From a virus, in the IMG/VR virus record IMGVR_UViG_3300043449_001598, positions 1 through 33,719 of that record: a stretch of DNA of 33,719 nucleotides; one strand, 5' to 3'. Each line of letters begins with the position of its first letter. Position 1 is the stretch's first letter. The notes under the pieces were generated by a model. It had not been told where the DNA came from and searched no databases. It saw nothing but the letters and a program-made list of their open reading frames with translations. A program made the position numbers and the translations under genes. This document shows positions 3,553 through 26,614 of the stretch, piece after piece.

Positions 3553-4181
3553 GGGAAAGGGAGAATCTGGTCAACCGCCGTGCCGTTGTCGTCCACGCCC
3601 AGCACGCGCTGCCATTGGCCGTTGTTGCTGACGATGACCTTGAACACGCCCTGACGCATGATGGGCGTGTCATAGATGCCATCCGATTCGTCGGCCGTGC
3701 GGTAGGTCTGGGTCGGGTCCGGGCTCGTGCTGGTGGGTTGGGTGACTGAGTTCTTGACCGTGATGGATTGCTGATAGACCGGTGTCCATCCGCCACCGCT
3801 CTGGCTAAACTCAATTTGCAGGTAGGCCGTGACGCTGGTCGCGCTGCCCACGTAGCTGTTCATGCCGGCCGTGTTGAGGTCGAGCGTGCCAGTGAACGTG
3901 TTGGTCCCGCTGTCTGCCGTCCAGCTGGTCTGCTGAACCAGTGGCGAGGCATCGTCCAGCGTGTCGTTCAGAGACACGCGCAGGCTCAGGTTGCTGACGG
4001 CTTTGCGCTCATAGAGAGGCAGCACGCTGGTGGTGCTTTCCTCCACCAAGCAGACGGTCATGGGAACGCTCTGATACTTGAACAGCGGCCCGATGCTGGC
4101 CTCGCCACCGTCGATGTCCGACTTCTGCAGGCGCTTCTCGGCGATGTTGACAAAGATGTTCTGGGTGACGGTGGTGCTCAT
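3549..4181 (-). CDS. Tail tip/baseplate-region protein, unknown
   Basis: The 210-residue protein has no cysteine-rich or membrane segments apart from ordinary beta-rich sequence. The first half (residues ~35-75) reads like a beta-sandwich that lists values and responses. The C-terminal ~50 residues (GVFKVIVSNNGQWQRVLGV) resemble modules that attach receptor-binding proteins to the tail. It lies between a 224-residue structural protein and the fibre gene and overlaps both by 4 bases, so it is probably a distal tail or baseplate-upper-type component (inference from position). No family is recognised with confidence. Confidence 0.6.
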   Translation of the reverse strand: MSTTVTQNIFVNIAEKRLQKSDIDGGEASIGPLFKYQSVPMTVCLVEESTTSVLPLYERKAVSNLSLRVSLNDTLDDASPLVQQTSWTADSGTNTFTGTLDLNTAGMNSYVGSATSVTAYLQIEFSQSGGGWTPVYQQSITVKNSVTQPTSTSPDPTQTYRTADESDGIYDTPIMRQGVFKVIVSNNGQWQRVLGVDDNGTAVDQILPFP

Positions 4182-4852
4182 GCTTGGATTGGCCCTCCGG
4201 CCACGTACATGTAACGGGTGACGGTCTGGCCGCCTTCCTGCACGCAGACCGCCACGCGCTGGTATTTGGGCCGGTAACAGCGCGCGTCCACGTTCAAGTC
4301 CAGCCAGGTCAACCGGACCTCATTGCGCAACACGCCGGTCTTGTCTTCCGGTTCGCAGGCGTAAATCTCCGAGCCGACCTCGTAGGCCGGAAACAACACC
4401 TCGTTGATGAAGCGGCTGTTGTCGCTGGTGTTGGTCAGCCGGCGGGTGTTGCCGTAGTCGCCAGCCGTTGGAAAACTGATGGTGAAAGTGTAACCAAGCG
4501 CCGTGTTGGTGGTGCCGCCGAGCGTGCTGACCCGCAGCTGGACGGGCTTGGCCACGTAATACGTGGTCGTGTCGGCGTCATCGAGTTCGCCGTTGTCTTT
4601 GAGCTTTCGGCATTCAAGCCAATCGTTCTCCAAGGCTCGCACTTGGAACCGTTGGATGGTGCTGCCGTCCTCGCCATCTTCGCCACCGGACACACGGTCG
4701 AGCTTGATAACCTGACCGTAAGCCGTGTGATGGACGTTGTAGCCTAGACCGCGCTGGATGCGCAGGCTTTGGGCCAGGTCGCCAAGCTGGTTGATGGCTT
4801 GGGCGTAGCGCTTCATCGGCCCGCGTTCCGGGAGTGCCGTGGGCTTTACCAT
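4178..4852 (-). CDS. Tail tip-region structural protein, unknown
   Basis: I chose the ATG at 4852 because it overlaps the upstream stop (ATGGTAA), which fits the tightly packed operon. The longer frame starting at 4894 would overlap the upstream gene by 49 bases. The resulting 224-residue protein is beta-rich. Residues ~110-200 carry cysteines in CEPED and DARCYRPKYQRVAVCVQ. The segment near the start (MKRYAQAINQLGDLAQSLRIQRGLGY) looks like an amphipathic helix often seen at the start of phage neck/tip proteins. Function is unknown; a baseplate or minor tail role is inferred from its place after the tape measure. Confidence 0.6.
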   Translation of the reverse strand: MVKPTALPERGPMKRYAQAINQLGDLAQSLRIQRGLGYNVHHTAYGQVIKLDRVSGGEDGEDGSTIQRFQVRALENDWLECRKLKDNGELDDADTTTYYVAKPVQLRVSTLGGTTNTALGYTFTISFPTAGDYGNTRRLTNTSDNSRFINEVLFPAYEVGSEIYACEPEDKTGVLRNEVRLTWLDLNVDARCYRPKYQRVAVCVQEGGQTVTRYMYVAGGPIQA

Positions 4853-6731: not shown

Positions 6732-7365
6732 TGGCGCCTCCTTGTCTTTGAGCCAGCTTGGCCGCCAGCGCTTCGGCCACGGCTTGGGCCTCCTCGATGG
6801 CGCTGCGGTCGGTCATTTGGATGTGCCCATCCAAAGCCTTCAGGGTGACGTAATCCCAGAGGCTAACGGCCCAGCTGCGGTCCATCATGACTTCGTCGCT
6901 GAACCCGAAGGCGCGCTGGAGGCTGGCCTTCACCATCTGCACGTGGGGACAAGCCACCTCGCGCACGTCGTTTGCGTCGTAGCTGTAGTGAGGAACCTTG
7001 GAATGCTCGCGAATGTAAGCCTCAAAGGCTTGGCTTTGGGCCGTGATGTCGATGGGTTGCACCTTGCGGCCCAGCACCCGGTCTCGCCACGTGTTGCGCG
7101 TCAGTCGCGCAGCCCAGACTGCCATGGCCTTGGCGGTGCCGGCTTGGTCCTCCAGCGTGCGCAAGGCTTCGCTGTAGGTCTGGGAGCAGATGGCCACGGC
7201 CATGGCCAGCTCCGTCCAGGCATCGGCCTGATTGGCCTCCGGGCAGACGTAAGCTGACTCGATTCTGTGCAGCAGGATGATGTGCCCGATGGACAGTGGC
7301 CGGAGCCGGAGGCCGAGCACATGGCGCGGCTCCGGGACCGTGGCGACGTAGAACTCGCTGGCCAT
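6718..7365 (-). CDS. Probable tail assembly chaperone
   Basis: The 215-residue, mostly helical protein lies between the tail tube gene and the tape measure gene, where tail assembly chaperones are found. The start (YVATVPEPRHVLGLRLRPLSIGHIILLHR) resembles the 'L-R-P-L-S-x-G-H' opening seen in other phage proteins at this locus. The C-terminus is Ala-rich and charged and overlaps the tape measure start by 14 bases. I see no separate downstream frame or slippery run that would point to the programmed frameshift typical of lambda G/GT. Confidence 0.6.
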   Translation of the reverse strand: MASEFYVATVPEPRHVLGLRLRPLSIGHIILLHRIESAYVCPEANQADAWTELAMAVAICSQTYSEALRTLEDQAGTAKAMAVWAARLTRNTWRDRVLGRKVQPIDITAQSQAFEAYIREHSKVPHYSYDANDVREVACPHVQMVKASLQRAFGFSDEVMMDRSWAVSLWDYVTLKALDGHIQMTDRSAIEEAQAVAEALAAKLAQRQGGANGTA

Positions 7366-7383
7366 TGGGGCGGGGAGGTATGC

Positions 7384-7827
7384 TTAGACCGACGTGGACA
7401 AATCCGATTCGTCGCTGTTTTCAAGCACGAGGTCGATTGTGGCAGCGCCGTCTACGGTGCGGTTCTGGGTGGCACTGATGACGTAGAAGTTGGTATCGAG
7501 CTTGCCGGTGCCGCTGCTAATTGTGTCGGTGATGCTGATTTTGTCGCCGGGCTTAGGCAGCAGGTTTTCACTGGATGTTGCGGCGTTGGCCAGCGTGCTG
7601 CCGGCAGGCACCACGGAGATGCGCAGCGTCTTAGTAAACCCGCTGAACACGACGGTCTTAATCTCTCCGCCAGTTTCCTTGATTCGGGCGACTTCGCTGT
7701 TGCGCTCGAATGACAGCGATTGCGTCATGTGGTTGGTTCCACCAACGCTTTCAGTGATTACGCCGCCGGCCATCGTGATGGTTCCAACGCTCCAAACAAC
7801 GCCGAGTCCTTTGATTGTTGCTGCCAT
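7384..7827 (-). CDS. Major tail tube protein
   Basis: The 147-residue, beta-rich protein opens MAATIKGLGVVWSVGTITMAGG and ends with an ATIDLVLENSDES-type strand, as expected for the single-domain tail tube proteins of long-tailed phages. It follows the tail terminator candidate by 2 bases and precedes the tail chaperone and tape measure. No Ig-like C-terminal extension is present. Assignment rests on size, beta pattern and position. Confidence 0.75.
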   Translation of the reverse strand: MAATIKGLGVVWSVGTITMAGGVITESVGGTNHMTQSLSFERNSEVARIKETGGEIKTVVFSGFTKTLRISVVPAGSTLANAATSSENLLPKPGDKISITDTISSGTGKLDTNFYVISATQNRTVDGAATIDLVLENSDESDLSTSV

Positions 7828-19452: not shown

Positions 19453-20444
19453 TGCATCCAGTTCCTCAACCACAACAGCTTTTGGACTTTGCCGTCCCGC
19501 AGGGCGCCAGGCACGCGCACTGGCTGGCTGTAGGTAAACAGCTTTGGGTCGCATTGCAGGGCGGTCAGCAGCGCTTTGAGGCGCTTCTCCAGCACGACGT
19601 TTTTGGGCTTGTGAAACCACCCGTGGAGGCTTTTGCCGGCGGTGTCCACGATGGCGTAAAGCTTCATGCGCAGGCGGTTGTTCAGGTAGGCGAACACGGC
19701 ACCAATCTGGTCCCTATTCAGGATGTCGGATTCCACGACAAGAAACCTGTGCCCGTTCAAGTTGGCGTTGCACCGGCTGTAGCTCCCCGGCTTGAAGCTG
19801 GAGCCGCAGGTGAAGTTCCCCATGGGCGGGGTGTCCAGCCATGCATCGATGGGCTTGAAATGTTGGCCATGCCTTGGCTGGCCCGTGCTGGTGGTGTCCC
19901 CGGTCCAGATGGTGCAATCCTTGGGCCAGATGGTCAGCCACATTCGGAACTGCTCTATGGGTTCGAGGCTGTAGGTCGGCCAAGGCGAGCTGTCCAAAAT
20001 GTCGGCCATGGGCCAACTGAATCGCTGCTGCAGTTCAGGGCTGAACCGGCGCGCCTGATTTGCAAGGCTCTCAAGCACAAGCGCCTCCTTCCTGTCCTTC
20101 CCATTGGCCTTGGCGGTGGCCTCGATGACCTCGCGCGGGACCACCTGCCCGGTGGGCTGGAGCACGTCACCACTCCTGATGACCCGACCACCGGGCAGCT
20201 GGATGGTCCAGCTGGTCTGGCCCAGCCCACGGCGCAACTCCCGGTTGGCTAGGTTGACGGCTGGAGCGCAGGAGGCGTGGAAGCAATGGATGGTGGGTGC
20301 ACCATCAATGTGGACTTGGCAATCGCGCTTGGCGGTCTTGCTTGTGTGCATGGCCTCCCCAGGACACCGGCAGAACCCGTGCACCTCGGTCTGCCAGTCG
20401 ATGGCACCGAGGAGCTGGGTGGCGATGGTGTGGGGGGAGGGCAT
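19449..20444 (-). CDS. Primase (zinc finger plus AEP-like domain)
   Basis: The 331-residue protein begins with a zinc-finger-like set (C25, C27, H33, then C54 and C59: CFHASC). The core has FLVVESD (234-240) and VDTAGKSLHGWF (266-277), the acidic strand and the 'S-x-H-G' motif of archaeo-eukaryotic-type phage primases. It ends in VRVPGALR.GKVQ, typical of such proteins. It would make primers for the phage fork with the helicase encoded immediately downstream. No good Shine-Dalgarno precedes the ATG at 20444. The last hairpin of array 1 lies about 33 bases upstream. Confidence 0.75.
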   Translation of the reverse strand: MPSPHTIATQLLGAIDWQTEVHGFCRCPGEAMHTSKTAKRDCQVHIDGAPTIHCFHASCAPAVNLANRELRRGLGQTSWTIQLPGGRVIRSGDVLQPTGQVVPREVIEATAKANGKDRKEALVLESLANQARRFSPELQQRFSWPMADILDSSPWPTYSLEPIEQFRMWLTIWPKDCTIWTGDTTSTGQPRHGQHFKPIDAWLDTPPMGNFTCGSSFKPGSYSRCNANLNGHRFLVVESDILNRDQIGAVFAYLNNRLRMKLYAIVDTAGKSLHGWFHKPKNVVLEKRLKALLTALQCDPKLFTYSQPVRVPGALRDGKVQKLLWLRNWMQ

Positions 20445-20476
20445 GGGGTTAGGTGGTCAATGAATCAGAAAGCTGT

Positions 20477-20958
20477 CCCCCGATTGCTCGGGGGATGATG
20501 GTTGCCATGCCAAGCTTTGCCTGGCCCGGCCTGGCCGAGCCCCGCCACGCCATGCCGTGTAAATCTTCCTGCCGCATTGCTGCAGCAGGTGGTGTTTGCC
20601 TCGCCCAGCCGTGCCGGGCCTTGCCAAGCCAAGCCCAGCAGCGCCCCGTAAATCTTCCCCTTGGTTTCCCAGGGGGTGGTGTTGCCATGCCCAGCCTAGC
20701 ACTGCCATGCCGAACCCAAGCAGGCCAAACCCCGGCCGGCCCCGTAAATCTTCTCCCCATTGCTGGGGAGTGTTGTTGCCTTGACGTACCGTGCCTCGCC
20801 ATGCCCTGCCTTGCCCAGCCCAGCCCTGCCCTGCCTCGCCCGGCCCATCCGGGCCTTGCTGCGCCATGTAAATCTTCCCACCCGATTGCTCGGGTGGGTG
20901 GTGTTGCTTTGCCGCGCCGCGCCGCGCCGCGCCCGGCCATGCCGTGCCACGGCATGCC
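20477..20958 (-). repeat. Hairpin/pentamer array 1 (five hairpins), unrecognised structured element
   Basis: Five hairpins lie at 20477-20494, 20568-20589, 20657-20676, 20753-20770 and 20877-20898. Read on the minus strand, each is preceded by AACACCAC or a variant, and four of the five are followed by GAAGATTTAC (degenerate after the hairpin at 20477). The tetraloop is GCAA in four and GAAA in one. Stem sequences differ between copies (CCCCCGA, CCTGCTGCA, CCCCCTGG, CTCCCCA, CCCACCCGA) yet nearly always pair. Between hairpins are 9-17 tandem GGCNN pentamers. Spacing of hairpin starts is about 89-124 bases. The array fills the gap between the 156-residue gene and the primase gene. It is not protein-coding in a conserved way. 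Confidence 0.85.
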
Positions 20959-20977
20959 AAAATGTCTCGGAGCGCCT

Positions 20978-21448
20978 TCATCGAGCCTGCATGAACAGGA
21001 ACCGCTTGGCGTAGGTCTCCGCGTCCTTTTCAAGGCGCATCACTTCTGTGCTGCTCAGCTTGGAGGTGTGCAGCTTGGCCGTGCTGAAACTCAGCCGGGC
21101 CGCCCTCAGCATTTGGCGCATGGCCGCCTTGTTCATGCCACGGGCGATGCGGCGGGTGTTCTTCACGTCCTCCACCCACCAGCTCTGGCCGTTCTTGCCT
21201 TTGCTGGTCAGGTGGTAGCCCATGCTCTCCAGCCGCTCGGTCAGGTTGGCCATAGCGATGCCGAAGGCAACCGTGCCCATCTTTAGGTCCATCTGTTCCT
21301 CGAAGAAGGCCAAGGGCCAGCTGGCGCCATGGTCTAGGTTGGGCTTCATGGCATCCAATGCCCGCTCCACCCGTTGCGACTTGAGCGGCTTGCCGGACTG
21401 CACCACTCGTTCCACTGCTGTCTCGTTGATGTTGGTCTGTTCAATCAT
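20978..21448 (-). CDS. Unknown protein bracketed by the two arrays
   Basis: The 156-residue protein is helical and basic in its C-terminal half (NTRRIARGMNKAAMRQMLRAARLS ... MRLEKDAETYAKRFLFMQAR). Its middle (WPLAFFEEQMDLKMGTVAFGIAMANLTERLESMGYHLTSKGKNGQSWWVED) looks like a small winged-helix-type domain. The start lies 24 bases from a hairpin of array 2 and has no clear Shine-Dalgarno. The stop is 20 bases from array 1. I do not recognise a family. As the only gene placed between the arrays, it may bind or process them (speculation). Confidence 0.65.
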   Translation of the reverse strand: MIEQTNINETAVERVVQSGKPLKSQRVERALDAMKPNLDHGASWPLAFFEEQMDLKMGTVAFGIAMANLTERLESMGYHLTSKGKNGQSWWVEDVKNTRRIARGMNKAAMRQMLRAARLSFSTAKLHTSKLSSTEVMRLEKDAETYAKRFLFMQAR

Positions 21449-21463
21449 AGGTTTGCTATTGGT

Positions 21464-21776
21464 TAAATCTTCCCGCCCCGGTTAGGGGGCGGGTGGTGTT
21501 TGCCGTGCCAGGGCTCGCCTTGCCTCGCCATGCCGGGCAACGCACTGCCGAGCCTCGGCCAGCCAAGCCGCGCCGTGCCGTAAATCTTCCCGCTGGTTTC
21601 CCAGCGGGTGATGTTTGCCTTGCCTCTCCAAGCCTCGCCGGGCCTCGCCATGCCGTGCCTAACCCGGCCGCGCCGCGTAAATCTTCCCACCCGATTGCTC
21701 GGGTGGGTGGTGTTGCCATGCCCGGCCAAGCCGCGCCAAGCCTTGCCCCGCCATGCCAGGCCTTGCCCCGTAAATC
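21464..21776 (-). repeat. Hairpin/pentamer array 2 (three hairpins)
   Basis: The same element as array 1. Hairpins are at 21472-21493, 21589-21608 and 21686-21707, with minus-strand loops CTAACC (UAAC centre), GAAA and GCAA. The third hairpin is identical to the one at 20877. About 10-15 GGCNN pentamers separate them. The GATTTAC box closest to the upstream gene (21770-21776) overlaps that gene's TGA stop codon. The box nearest the 156-residue gene is slightly degenerate (GATTTAA). The array fills the whole intergenic gap. Confidence 0.85.
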
Positions 21777-22356
21777 ACAGTTGCTCACAGATGAATCTCC
21801 CAAACTTGGGCCGCCAGTCTCCCAGACCAATCAGCGTTCCGGCGTCATTGACGGCCTTGAGCAGGTTCTTGGCGTTGATGATGGTGTCGTCGAACTCCAG
21901 CTGGAATTGCAGTGTCCAGCCGGTCGGGAACATGGGCCGGATGCGAATCAGCCGGGACTTCTGCACCGCGACACCCTTGCGCAGGATGAAGTTGCCCGCG
22001 TCGTAGAGCTTGCGCATGTCCTTCGGACCCTCGTATTGCAACTTGATGGCCGACTGGGAGCAGAACACGGCCGCGGCCACGTCCTTGCCGATGCGGCTTT
22101 TCTGCGCGCCCAGCTGGATGCACCGCTCGATGTTGTCGCTCGGGATGTAGGCACCCAGGTCGTCGGACCAGTAGAGTCCGGCCTGCCACTCCAGCCAGTC
22201 CCGCTCCTCGTAGTCGGCATCGGTCAGCTTCTTGCTGCCTTTGCTGACGATTTCCTTGATGCGCCGCGTAAGTGGATTGGTTGGGTCTGCCATCAATCCG
22301 TTGTGCATCACCAGCGGCCGCAGCCCCGTCAATTTCAACTGTATCGTCTGTATCAT
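21775..22356 (-). CDS. Conserved phage protein (RAMP-like signature), function unknown
   Basis: AGAGGAAG precedes the ATG at 22356. The 193-residue product matches a phage family I recognise from its phrases: LRPLVMHNGLMADPTNPLTRRIK, then GLYWSDDLGAYIPSDNIERCIQLGAQKSRIGKD, and the C-terminal GLGDWRPKFGRF. The late Gly-rich 'G-D-W-R-P-x-F-G-R-F' loop recalls the RAMP fold of Cas7-type RNA-binding proteins, but no enzymatic residues are evident and CRISPR is absent. The family usually occurs in phage replication regions. The stop overlaps the array box. Confidence 0.6.
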   Translation of the reverse strand: MIQTIQLKLTGLRPLVMHNGLMADPTNPLTRRIKEIVSKGSKKLTDADYEERDWLEWQAGLYWSDDLGAYIPSDNIERCIQLGAQKSRIGKDVAAAVFCSQSAIKLQYEGPKDMRKLYDAGNFILRKGVAVQKSRLIRIRPMFPTGWTLQFQLEFDDTIINAKNLLKAVNDAGTLIGLGDWRPKFGRFICEQL

Positions 22357-22402
22357 CTTTGCTTCCTCTTGTTGTTTGTTGTTAGTGCACCGCGAAATCC
22401 CT

Positions 22403-22669
22403 TCACACCCACCACTTGTCCTTTCCCCTCTCCCACTCCATCGCCGCCCGGTGGAAATCACTGGCGCGCCGGATGATGGCGTCAGCCTGTGCCTGGCTCA
22501 GCCGGGCCGGGTTGGCCGCGCCCAACTTCTCCTGCATGTAGGCCAGGTAAACGCGCTCCACCTCTGAGCCAAGGCTAAGCGCAGCCTCCTGCTCGGGCAG
22601 GGTGAGGTCGCGCAGGCCGATGGCGGCTTCCACCTTGGCGACGAGGTCTGGTGGGCAAAGTGGGGTCAT
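22403..22669 (-). CDS. Small early protein, unknown
   Basis: The ATG at 22669 overlaps the previous stop (ATGA), so I use it and not the longer frame. The 88-residue protein is helical and acidic/basic mixed (MTPLCPPDLVAKVEAAIGLRDL ... AMEWERGKDKWWV). No domain is recognised. It belongs to a row of short early genes. Confidence 0.6.
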   Translation of the reverse strand: MTPLCPPDLVAKVEAAIGLRDLTLPEQEAALSLGSEVERVYLAYMQEKLGAANPARLSQAQADAIIRRASDFHRAAMEWERGKDKWWV

Positions 22670-22953
22670 CGGCTTCCCTTGCATGCCGCACCGTTCTTGC
22701 GGCGCTTGGCCACCTCCTTGGCACGCTGGGTTGGCGTCAGGCTGGCCCACCAGGTCTTGGCTGACCGCACAGCCTTCGGGTTGGGGCCAAAGCGCGACAG
22801 GTCTTCCGTGATGGGTGGCCGATAGGCTGGCCCGGATGGCAGCCGCTCCGGCTCCGGCTTGTGAGCGCCGTGGTAATCGTGGTCGAAGGTGAACACGTTG
22901 CGCCGCTGCACCTTGATGCCCAACCGCTCCTTCAGTTGGTCGTATTTGGTCAT
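22666..22953 (-). CDS. Small basic early protein, unknown
   Basis: The 95-residue protein starts MTKYDQLKERLGIKVQRRN at 22953, 4 bases after the previous stop. The C-terminal part is basic (KEVAKRRKNGAACKGSR), with a WWASLTPTQRAKE segment that resembles the conserved 'W-x-x-[LM]-[ST]-P-E-[EQ]-R-x-x-x' helix found in small phage and host proteins. It may contact DNA or RNA. Function unknown. Confidence 0.6.
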   Translation of the reverse strand: MTKYDQLKERLGIKVQRRNVFTFDHDYHGAHKPEPERLPSGPAYRPPITEDLSRFGPNPKAVRSAKTWWASLTPTQRAKEVAKRRKNGAACKGSR

Positions 22954-24167: not shown

Positions 24168-26411
24168 TCAGGAGTTGGATTCTGCAAAGGTGAACAGGTC
24201 GCCGCGGGCGGCCTCGGCTTCCGCCATTCGCAGGTTGGCCACGGCTTGTTTCCAATAGCTGGGTTTAAGTTCCACGCCGAAGAACCGGCGCCCAGTCAAC
24301 AACGCCACGTAGCCCTCGGATCCGATGCCCGCGAATGGGGACAGCACCACATCTCCCGGATTGCTCCAGAGCTCCATGGCGCGCTCGATCACGTCCAGCT
24401 GCAGCGGGCAGATGTGCCGCTCATCCTTCTCGTCGCGGGCGCTGTCCTTTTGCAGGGTGCGGCTGGCGTTGATGTCCATCCAGACCGGGCTGGCGTAGCG
24501 TTGCCACAGGTCGATCGACAGCCGACCTTCGCTGACAAACGAGTTGTCACCAATCCAGCGGTCCAGTTCGCCCTCCACCGGCTGCGGGTTCTCGCCCGGC
24601 TTGCGCATGGTCACGAGATAGTCCGGCACTCCCTGGCGGCTCATGCAGGAGTCCTTGACGACCTGCTTGTGAAGCAGCCCCAGCGCCTTGGTCCGCTGCA
24701 TGGCGGTCACCGGGTCTTTCCAGATGCAGACCTCGGAATGGAAGATGAACCCGGCATCACGAAATACGCGGATCAGGTCTCCGCGGAAGTCGTGCAGCCC
24801 GATGTAGCCGTGATGGCTCTTGCTGGTGGGCAGGTTCATGCAGTGGAAGCTCACCAGCCGGCCGGCCTTGGTAACCCGGTAAAGCTCGCGCACCAGAAAT
24901 CGGAAGTGCTGCTCGAACTGCTCATAGTCCTTGCAGTTGCCCATATCCCGGTTGCTGGCCGAGTAGGTGTAGAGGCTGGCAAAGGGTGGACTGAAGATGC
25001 TGTAGCCAATGGACTCGTCGTCCAGCTTGGCGACGGTCTCGACGCAATCACCCAGCGCCATCGTCCAATTCTCCCCGCGGGCCACGTCATTGACGTAGGC
25101 ATCCTCCATACGTTGAACGCCTTTGATGTTCTGTTCGTTGATTGAGTGCATGTGTTTCACCATTTCATCTGCCATGCGCGCGGCATCGGCTTCCTTGCGT
25201 TTGATGTTGCTCACCACCGCGCCCTCGGCGGAGCTCGTGATGATGTAAACTCTGACCTCCTGCTTCTGGCCGAACCGCCAGCAGCGGCGAACAGCTTGAT
25301 AATATTGCTCCCAGCTATCGCTCAGCCCCACGAACGCCACGTTGCGGCAGTGCTGCCAATTCATGCCGAACCCGGCAATGGACGGCTTGGTGACCAGGAC
25401 ACGAATGGCGCCATCGCTGAACGCCTGCAGCTGCTCGGCTTTCTCGTCAGGTGTGTCGCTGCCCTTTACCTGCACGGCTCCGGCAATGGCGTCCTCGATG
25501 GCGTCTGCCTCAGAGTTGAGGTTGCACCAGATAATCCACGGCTCGTCGCTGGCGTTGACCAGCTCCGCGCACTTGGTCACGCGGGCCTCTACGCTTTCCC
25601 GGCGCGCCCCGATGCGCTCCTGCAGTGTCTGAGCCTCCATGGCGAACAGGAAATTGCCCTTGGCCTCGTGTTCCACCGTCACGTCCTGAATGCGCATGGG
25701 TGGGAGGACGAATCCGCCGTCATCGTAGCCCAGGTCGCTGGGCTTACGGATCATGACCGCCCAGCTGCACACCCAGCGCCAGAAGTCCTGCTCAGCGTGG
25801 CCCTTCAACCGCCATTTGCTGGTGTCCCCGCCGTCGTGGACAAAGAACATGGACAGCATCTCGGTCCGGGTCATGGCGCCCACAAACTCGGCATGGTTGC
25901 CCAGCTCCATGTGGTCGTTGGGAGCCGGCGTGGCGGTGCAGGCCAACCGGTAGGGCGTTTTGGCAAACCGGCTGATGAGCAGGTTGCGGAACTTGCCATC
26001 GAAATGCTTGATGATGCTGCTCTCGTCGAGCACCACGCCGGCGAATTTGGCCGGGTCAAACTCCTCGACCATCTCGTAGTTCGTGATGGTGATGGTGCCA
26101 GGCGTTACTTGTTTTTGGCTCCGGCAGTAACGGACCTCGATGCCCAGCTTCTTCCCTTCAGCCTTGGTTTGCTTGGCCACAGCCAGCGGCGCCAGGATGA
26201 GCACGTCGCCGGGGATTTGTTCCGCCCAGGATAGCTGCATGAAGGTCTTGCCCATTCCGCAGTCGGCAAAGATACAGGCCCGGCCGCGGCGGAGTGCCCA
26301 CTTCACAATGTCCCGCTGGAACGGGAACAGCTTGCTATGCGGCTCCCTTGGTTCCAGCCCTGCGGGCGGGACCATGGCCAGTTTTGATTTTAGAAACGTT
26401 TGGTAGTGCAT
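24168..26411 (-). CDS. Helicase-DNA methyltransferase fusion protein
   Basis: AGGAG lies 7 bases before the ATG at 26411. The 747-residue protein has two modules. Residues ~30-400 are an SF2 (SNF2/type I restriction-like) helicase: DCGMGKT (50-56), DESS (129-132), TAT (159-161), and a C-terminal motif VI-like QAVRRCWRFGQ (372-382). Residues ~450-740 are a beta-class amino-methyltransferase: catalytic SPPF (474-477), then a target region, then the SAM-binding SPFAGIGSEG (691-700). Putting SPPF before the SAM site is the beta order. It could methylate phage DNA during translocation, protecting it from restriction, as proposed for DarB-like proteins. No restriction nuclease domain is seen. Confidence 0.85.
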   Translation of the reverse strand: MHYQTFLKSKLAMVPPAGLEPREPHSKLFPFQRDIVKWALRRGRACIFADCGMGKTFMQLSWAEQIPGDVLILAPLAVAKQTKAEGKKLGIEVRYCRSQKQVTPGTITITNYEMVEEFDPAKFAGVVLDESSIIKHFDGKFRNLLISRFAKTPYRLACTATPAPNDHMELGNHAEFVGAMTRTEMLSMFFVHDGGDTSKWRLKGHAEQDFWRWVCSWAVMIRKPSDLGYDDGGFVLPPMRIQDVTVEHEAKGNFLFAMEAQTLQERIGARRESVEARVTKCAELVNASDEPWIIWCNLNSEADAIEDAIAGAVQVKGSDTPDEKAEQLQAFSDGAIRVLVTKPSIAGFGMNWQHCRNVAFVGLSDSWEQYYQAVRRCWRFGQKQEVRVYIITSSAEGAVVSNIKRKEADAARMADEMVKHMHSINEQNIKGVQRMEDAYVNDVARGENWTMALGDCVETVAKLDDESIGYSIFSPPFASLYTYSASNRDMGNCKDYEQFEQHFRFLVRELYRVTKAGRLVSFHCMNLPTSKSHHGYIGLHDFRGDLIRVFRDAGFIFHSEVCIWKDPVTAMQRTKALGLLHKQVVKDSCMSRQGVPDYLVTMRKPGENPQPVEGELDRWIGDNSFVSEGRLSIDLWQRYASPVWMDINASRTLQKDSARDEKDERHICPLQLDVIERAMELWSNPGDVVLSPFAGIGSEGYVALLTGRRFFGVELKPSYWKQAVANLRMAEAEAARGDLFTFAESNS

Positions 26412-26614
26412 TTGTTTCTCCTGCTGCCGCCCTAAGCCACCCGTTGTTTCGGAACCCACGATTCCACGGGTGGCCCAGTGGGCGCTTGCGCTTTTTGCTT
26501 AGGATGTCGGGCATGAAAGGATTGCCTGCACACCACCCACACGGGCTGTGTCACCGTCTGAATTGGACAGGATGAACTGTTCCACGGCGCGGCTGTAGCC
26601 GGGCAGGCAAAGGG
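26412..26614. other. Gap upstream of helicase-methyltransferase with inverted repeat
   Basis: These 203 bases contain no convincing gene. A 9-bp inverted repeat GCCACCCGT / ACGGGTGGC (26436-26444 and 26466-26474) lies shortly before the helicase-methyltransferase start, with a smaller GGAA/TTCC complement inside its 21-base loop. A leader or regulatory hairpin is likely. A frame starting at 26514 overlaps the helicase start and has no ribosome site. Confidence 0.4.

Follow-up and report, generated by a model that had tools for sequence, protein, structure and literature searches.

A probable Viral Interference Programmable Repeat locus with hairpin-tailed pentamer arrays in a temperate phage

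The locus lies in a stretch of viral DNA of 33,719 nucleotides (the window), an entire IMG/VR record, whose proteins include a terminase (TerL), a portal, a head protease, a tape measure, a helicase/primase-like ATPase, a fused helicase-methylase and an integrase. With this gene set, and the integrase among it, a temperate tailed phage is the most likely source, and no DNA similarity of the window to sequenced phages was found. We note that the fused protein (24168-26459) joins a SNF2-like helicase to an N6/N4 DNA methylase and is 61.5% identical to a protein of Synechococcus phage S-CBS3. The genes around the arrays are oriented leftwards. On the minus strand, a gene for a 193-residue RAMP-fold protein (21775..22356) is followed by a first array of three units (A to C), a gene for a 156-residue protein (20978..21448) and a second array of five units (D to H). 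Together the two arrays comprise eight pentamer tracts between 20469 and 21776. The first-pass annotation had split eight minus-strand units over two arrays; they are present where it placed them and, as judged by shuffling, lie far beyond chance. It had also described the arrays as flanking one gene; this holds for 20978-21448, but the gene of the key protein at 21775-22356, just upstream, was overlooked. The stop codon of the latter overlaps the first GATTTAC box.

On the minus strand, each unit runs from pentamers through AACACCAC or a near variant to a hairpin and then to AAGATTTA. A YNNGG pattern was readable in all eight tracts, in one register within each, and we prefer it to the GGCNN pentamers first proposed, since in most units the final C of GATTTAC already opens the first repeat; the tracts as such were correctly recognized. 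The putative guide tracts and their 3′ tails all lie on the minus strand. In the first array, candidate vrRNA A has 11 repeats (21716..21770) and a tail composed of AACACCA, a 9-bp stem, a GCAA loop and AAGATTT (21679..21714); B has 12 repeats (21618..21677) and a tail hairpin with a GAAA loop and an AAGATTT junction (21582..21616); and C has 16 repeats, 4 of them degenerate (21503..21582), with a CTAACC-looped hairpin that closes the array (21465..21501). The second array opens with D, whose 10 repeats (20912..20961) are not preceded by a GATTTAC box and whose tail (20870..20905) is identical to tail A. It continues with E (18 repeats, 20779..20868; tail hairpin, 20746..20777), F (12 repeats, 20685..20744; tail hairpin, 20650..20683) and G (10 repeats, 20599..20648; tail hairpin, 20561..20597), and finishes with H (11 repeats, 20505..20559), whose tail (20469..20503) is a terminal variant. 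These readings correct the earlier count of 9-17 pentamers per unit to 10-18, and they loosen the architecture that had been thought fixed. No GATTTAC box precedes D, with which the second array opens; AACACCAC varies as AACATCAC, AACAACAC and AACCATCAT, and H terminates in ACAGCTTT, not AAGATTTAC; and the hairpins mostly carry the expected tetraloop, of GNRA type (GCAA or GAAA), the exception being CTAACC.

Perfect runs extended to at most 11 repeats, and the minus strand held 6 runs of 6 or more repeats while the plus strand held none; in 300 dinucleotide shuffles of the region and 30 of the whole window, no run was longer than 4. Several degenerate pentamers occur within C, E, F, G and H. 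The NN letters are distinct among all eight units, and all 16 NN dinucleotides are in use across 483 tracts. Given the low-complexity look of the sequence, an assembly artefact or a satellite repeat made by slippage was considered, and to this we assign a negligible probability: slippage would not yield diverse NN letters, and the same architecture with other NN letters recurs in many independent contigs and in the isolated phages SUSP1 and wV8. These independent records exclude an assembly artefact.

We then compared the protein encoded at 21775-22356 with known families. An iterative family profile matched PDB 36pp, "SUSP1 Vipr protein" (chain 36pp_D), at E=1.3e-47, far ahead of other matches; in the same search CRISPR Csm5 appeared only at E=0.6, among chance matches. 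By blastp, the window protein is 33.5% identical to SUSP1 Vipr over 191 residues (E=3e-39). Its AlphaFold (AF2) model, with a pLDDT of 96.7, matched the fold of Csm3-type RAMPs (E 2.6e-6), and its C-terminal G-loop, GLGDWRPKFGRF, is a conserved motif of the GxGDxRPxxGRF type. All 69 aligned family members (69/69) fall in PHROG 4652, a group of unknown function, and in the Vipr tree SUSP1 and the window protein share one 27-row group with a support of 86. Among the PADLOC and NCBIfam Cas models, only stray matches were obtained. No close Vipr was found in GTDB genomes, where relatives were 36-40% identical and mostly from Alphaproteobacteria. Fifteen such bacterial-genome homologues were retrieved (L180-L194), including one on Bradyrhizobium plasmid pBb1S5b, and tracts lie nearby in 14/15.

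The PDB 36pp match led, through a literature search on the name Vipr, to a preprint on VIPR (Viral Interference Programmable Repeat), a CRISPR-like system of RNA-guided DNA recognition in phages that was first described in April 2026 and published in April-June 2026 (PMC13142463). The published tracts are intergenic, with 9-16 tandem YNNGG repeats, hypervariable NN letters and a GGY/NN code (PMC13142463). We asked how regularly such tracts accompany vipr. The exact boxes of the window units matched no other viral contig; the productive query was the pentamer pattern (GGCNN)7GGC, which matched at least 120 stretches. Loci selected in this way are laid out alike but have different hairpins, and a protein with the signature PLLMHN...GxGDxRPxxGRF recurs next to their arrays; by iterative profile the Vipr family was present in 85/120 of them, among the matches listed, compared to 0/24 loci selected by terminase. 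Conversely, tracts were found in 28/28 viral and 14/15 genomic loci fetched by Vipr alone. In the array-selected loci, again among the matches listed, 642 segments lay on the vipr strand and 20 on the opposite strand, at a median distance of 30 nt, and in the vipr-selected viral loci the corresponding numbers were 144 and 0. The terminase-selected loci are not a clean negative control for tracts, since three of them (L010, L018 and L019), related to the window phage through terminase, carry YNNGG tracts; L010 also holds a vap homologue at 1006-1467. In phage wV8 (EU877232; L177), the repeats annotated in GenBank as "DR_4" (2759-2816 and 4152-4209) flank a vipr-vap pair and coincide with sequence that matches the SUSP1 vrRNA tail.

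The tails were analyzed as a set of thirteen distinct sequences from the window and two relatives, L151 and L172. Their consensus is an AACA(C/A/T)CA-like flank, a stem of 6-9 bp with a frequently GNRA-type loop, and AAG(A/C)TTT. The basal pairs are formed in 77/78 cases, compared to a shuffle mean of 54, and 0/10000 shuffles reached 77; compensatory changes were seen at all six basal-pair positions, and within a single array most units have stems of different sequence. In addition, GATTT occurs 5′ of array-first units that have no upstream hairpin, namely, unit A of the window and twice in L151, and it may therefore act as a 5′ leader besides being a 3′ flank. The compensatory changes bear on a reading of the arrays as acting purely as DNA, be it as an origin, as a packaging site or as a protein-binding site. 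Intergenic position and inverted repeats would suit such elements, but neither the paired changes in the hairpins nor the strict link to the vipr strand (144 to 0) would be expected of them, and the SUSP1 relatives are expressed as RNA (PMC13142463), so that we consider this reading highly improbable. The same strand link, the position next to the vipr and vap-like genes and the unit-specific NN letters lend no support to the earlier suggestions of a region for replication or priming, or of a mobile repeat that invades intergenic gaps.

The gene flanked by the two arrays (20978-21448) gave no pairwise blastp match to SUSP1 vap1, yet an iterative profile built from it reached SUSP1 vap1 at E=5e-21, and homologues are present in 26/28 vipr-selected viral loci. 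Its AF2 model (pLDDT 86.3) consists of a predicted winged helix and a C-terminal helical hairpin; fold matches were weak and mostly to winged-helix DNA-binding proteins. The vap of type II systems is described as "predicted DNA binding" (PMC13142463), and the model fits that description. Among the VIPR types I-VII, the resemblance of this gene to vap1 and the grouping in the Vipr tree point tentatively to type II or a near relative.

Taken together, these data indicate, with a probability that we put at about 95%, that the locus is the VIPR of a temperate phage, with a leftward vipr gene, array 1 (guides A-C), a vap-like gene and array 2 (guides D-H). Direct observations behind this assignment are the homology of vipr and vap, tracts that keep a YNNGG register and lie on the vipr strand, and tail hairpins whose pairs covary. 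The testable structural features of VIPR are all present: a vipr gene encoding a RAMP homologue with a G-loop; tandem YNNGG tracts of 10-18 repeats, of which one (18) slightly exceeds the published range; a constant structured 3′ tail, albeit of a structure unlike that of SUSP1; an accessory vap gene, identified through the SUSP1 vap1 profile; and carriage by a phage or provirus, which is typical but not obligatory. The locus therefore belongs to a described class and not to a new repeat class. Because its architecture equals that of VIPR, the label "undescribed" given in the first-pass annotation no longer holds, although its statement that no such class was known was reasonable for a class published so recently. 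A match to a known family did emerge, by way of Vipr and PDB 36pp; Rfam gave no match above chance, the lone miRNA match (E=0.44) being far below the gathering score. The further suggestion of a structured RNA or protein-binding scaffold proved partly apt, in that the units are, by homology, guide RNAs that end in a hairpin and to which a RAMP protein binds.

In SUSP1, vrRNA is bound by Vipr and pairs through its NN letters with double-stranded DNA, one base being skipped per step, and binding represses transcription; the targets are rival phages or satellites, and Vap1 strengthens protection (PMC13142463). By homology, eight guide RNAs would arise from the window locus and lead Vipr, through their NN letters, to a gapped DNA target. 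Extending the SUSP1 scheme, a minus-strand transcript would be cut near the AAGATTTA junctions to yield eight vrRNAs of roughly 85-130 nt, and Vipr subunits would assemble along each YNNGG tract, with the protein holding the constant GGY letters. The N letters, two per repeat, would then pair with double-stranded DNA, one target base being skipped between pairs, and the bound complex would block transcription of a rival phage, satellite or prophage, aided by Vap as a DNA-binding protein. For Vipr, a processing enzyme, or both, the tail hairpin may serve as a constant 3′ handle. The placement of one Vipr subunit on each pentamer and the processing site are our own proposals and do not come from the SUSP1 paper.

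We searched for targets of these putative guides. With a 1-nt skip, neither guide A (11 repeats, exact) nor the 9-repeat cores of B, E and F matched in IMG/VR, and guides A and H found no target among 37 kin records at up to 3 mismatches. When 466 guides were compared with 1.7 Mb of fetched loci, which for guides C, D and G constituted the target search, 1-nt-skip matches were not above those of shuffled guides, and none of the eight guides targets the window itself in this manner. These negatives are weak evidence, as the searches were small or confined to exact matches. The lack of a natural target in the searches made (IMG/VR exact, kin records) would also fit arrays that act as Vipr-bound RNA decoys or sponges, e.g., against host CRISPR or another RNA-binding defence, for which a RAMP protein and a repeated GGY motif would equally form a sink. 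A sponge would have no need of variable letters, however, yet the tracts draw on 16 NN dinucleotides and all eight units differ, and the SUSP1 homologues work as programmable guides (PMC13142463). We consider decoys very unlikely and retain the reading of the arrays as guide RNAs.

The window and its closest relatives, L151 and L172, may tentatively be viewed as a VIPR subtype in which a tail hairpin and the shared AAGATTTA junction would form the cut site of the array and in which stems would be kept different, limiting recombination within the array; on present evidence we think this somewhat doubtful. Such a tail and processing scheme is absent from the main text of the VIPR preprint (PMC13142463). 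In four other loci with VIPR-type arrays, L047 (minus strand, after the tracts), L135, L178 (Gordonia phage Trine) and L032, the tails resemble a tRNA acceptor stem plus T-arm (GGTTCGANTCC), for which host RNase P or RNase Z would be candidate processing enzymes; tRNA-like array tails are likewise unmentioned in the preprint's main text. In L036, L143, L050, L122, L126 and L140, very short separators (GTTCA, GGAAC, GGCAGGC) replace the hairpins, which indicates that unit separation varies widely among VIPR-like loci.

It has been proposed that CRISPR RAMP systems descend from VIPR and that VIPR is a phage-versus-phage weapon, with a gapped guide code unlike that of any other RNA-guided system (PMC13142463). 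To this the window adds an unusually clear locus, in which eight guides can be read, a vap homologue is present and the tail is well defined, and the 28 fetched relatives provide a clade for studying how arrays are processed, how tails are recognized and how targets are chosen. The VIPR pattern was, moreover, recognizable from raw sequence alone.

Among known systems, Class 1 CRISPR (Csm3/Cas7) shares with the locus a RAMP protein fold and arrayed guide units that carry a constant handle. No CRISPR repeat-spacer array was detected in 19500-22800, and no cas genes were recognized among the window proteins scanned; the window locus differs from Class 1 systems in the lack of a repeat-spacer array, in its gapped pentamer guide code and in its single small protein domain. 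The SUSP1 VIPR (KT454805; PDB 36pp; PMC13142463) is much closer, with Vipr and vap1 homologues and one-strand intergenic YNNGG tracts with structured tails. SUSP1 uses mostly TNNGG, whereas the window locus uses CNNGG, and one guide lies upstream and three lie downstream of vipr-vap in SUSP1, whereas the window has three between vipr and vap and five past vap. The SUSP1 tail is a pseudoknot (PMC13142463), which has no obvious counterpart in the window tails; these form a simple, mostly GNRA-capped hairpin flanked by AACACCAC and AAGATTT. L151 (IMGVR_UViG_3300042261_000601) differs in having at least 11 guides, other NN letters and an often shorter stem, but its Vipr is 73% identical, its arrays lie on both sides of a vap-like gene located within 6777-7469, and its tail (CAACAACACTCCCC...GGGGAGAAGATTT) is near-identical to that of the window.
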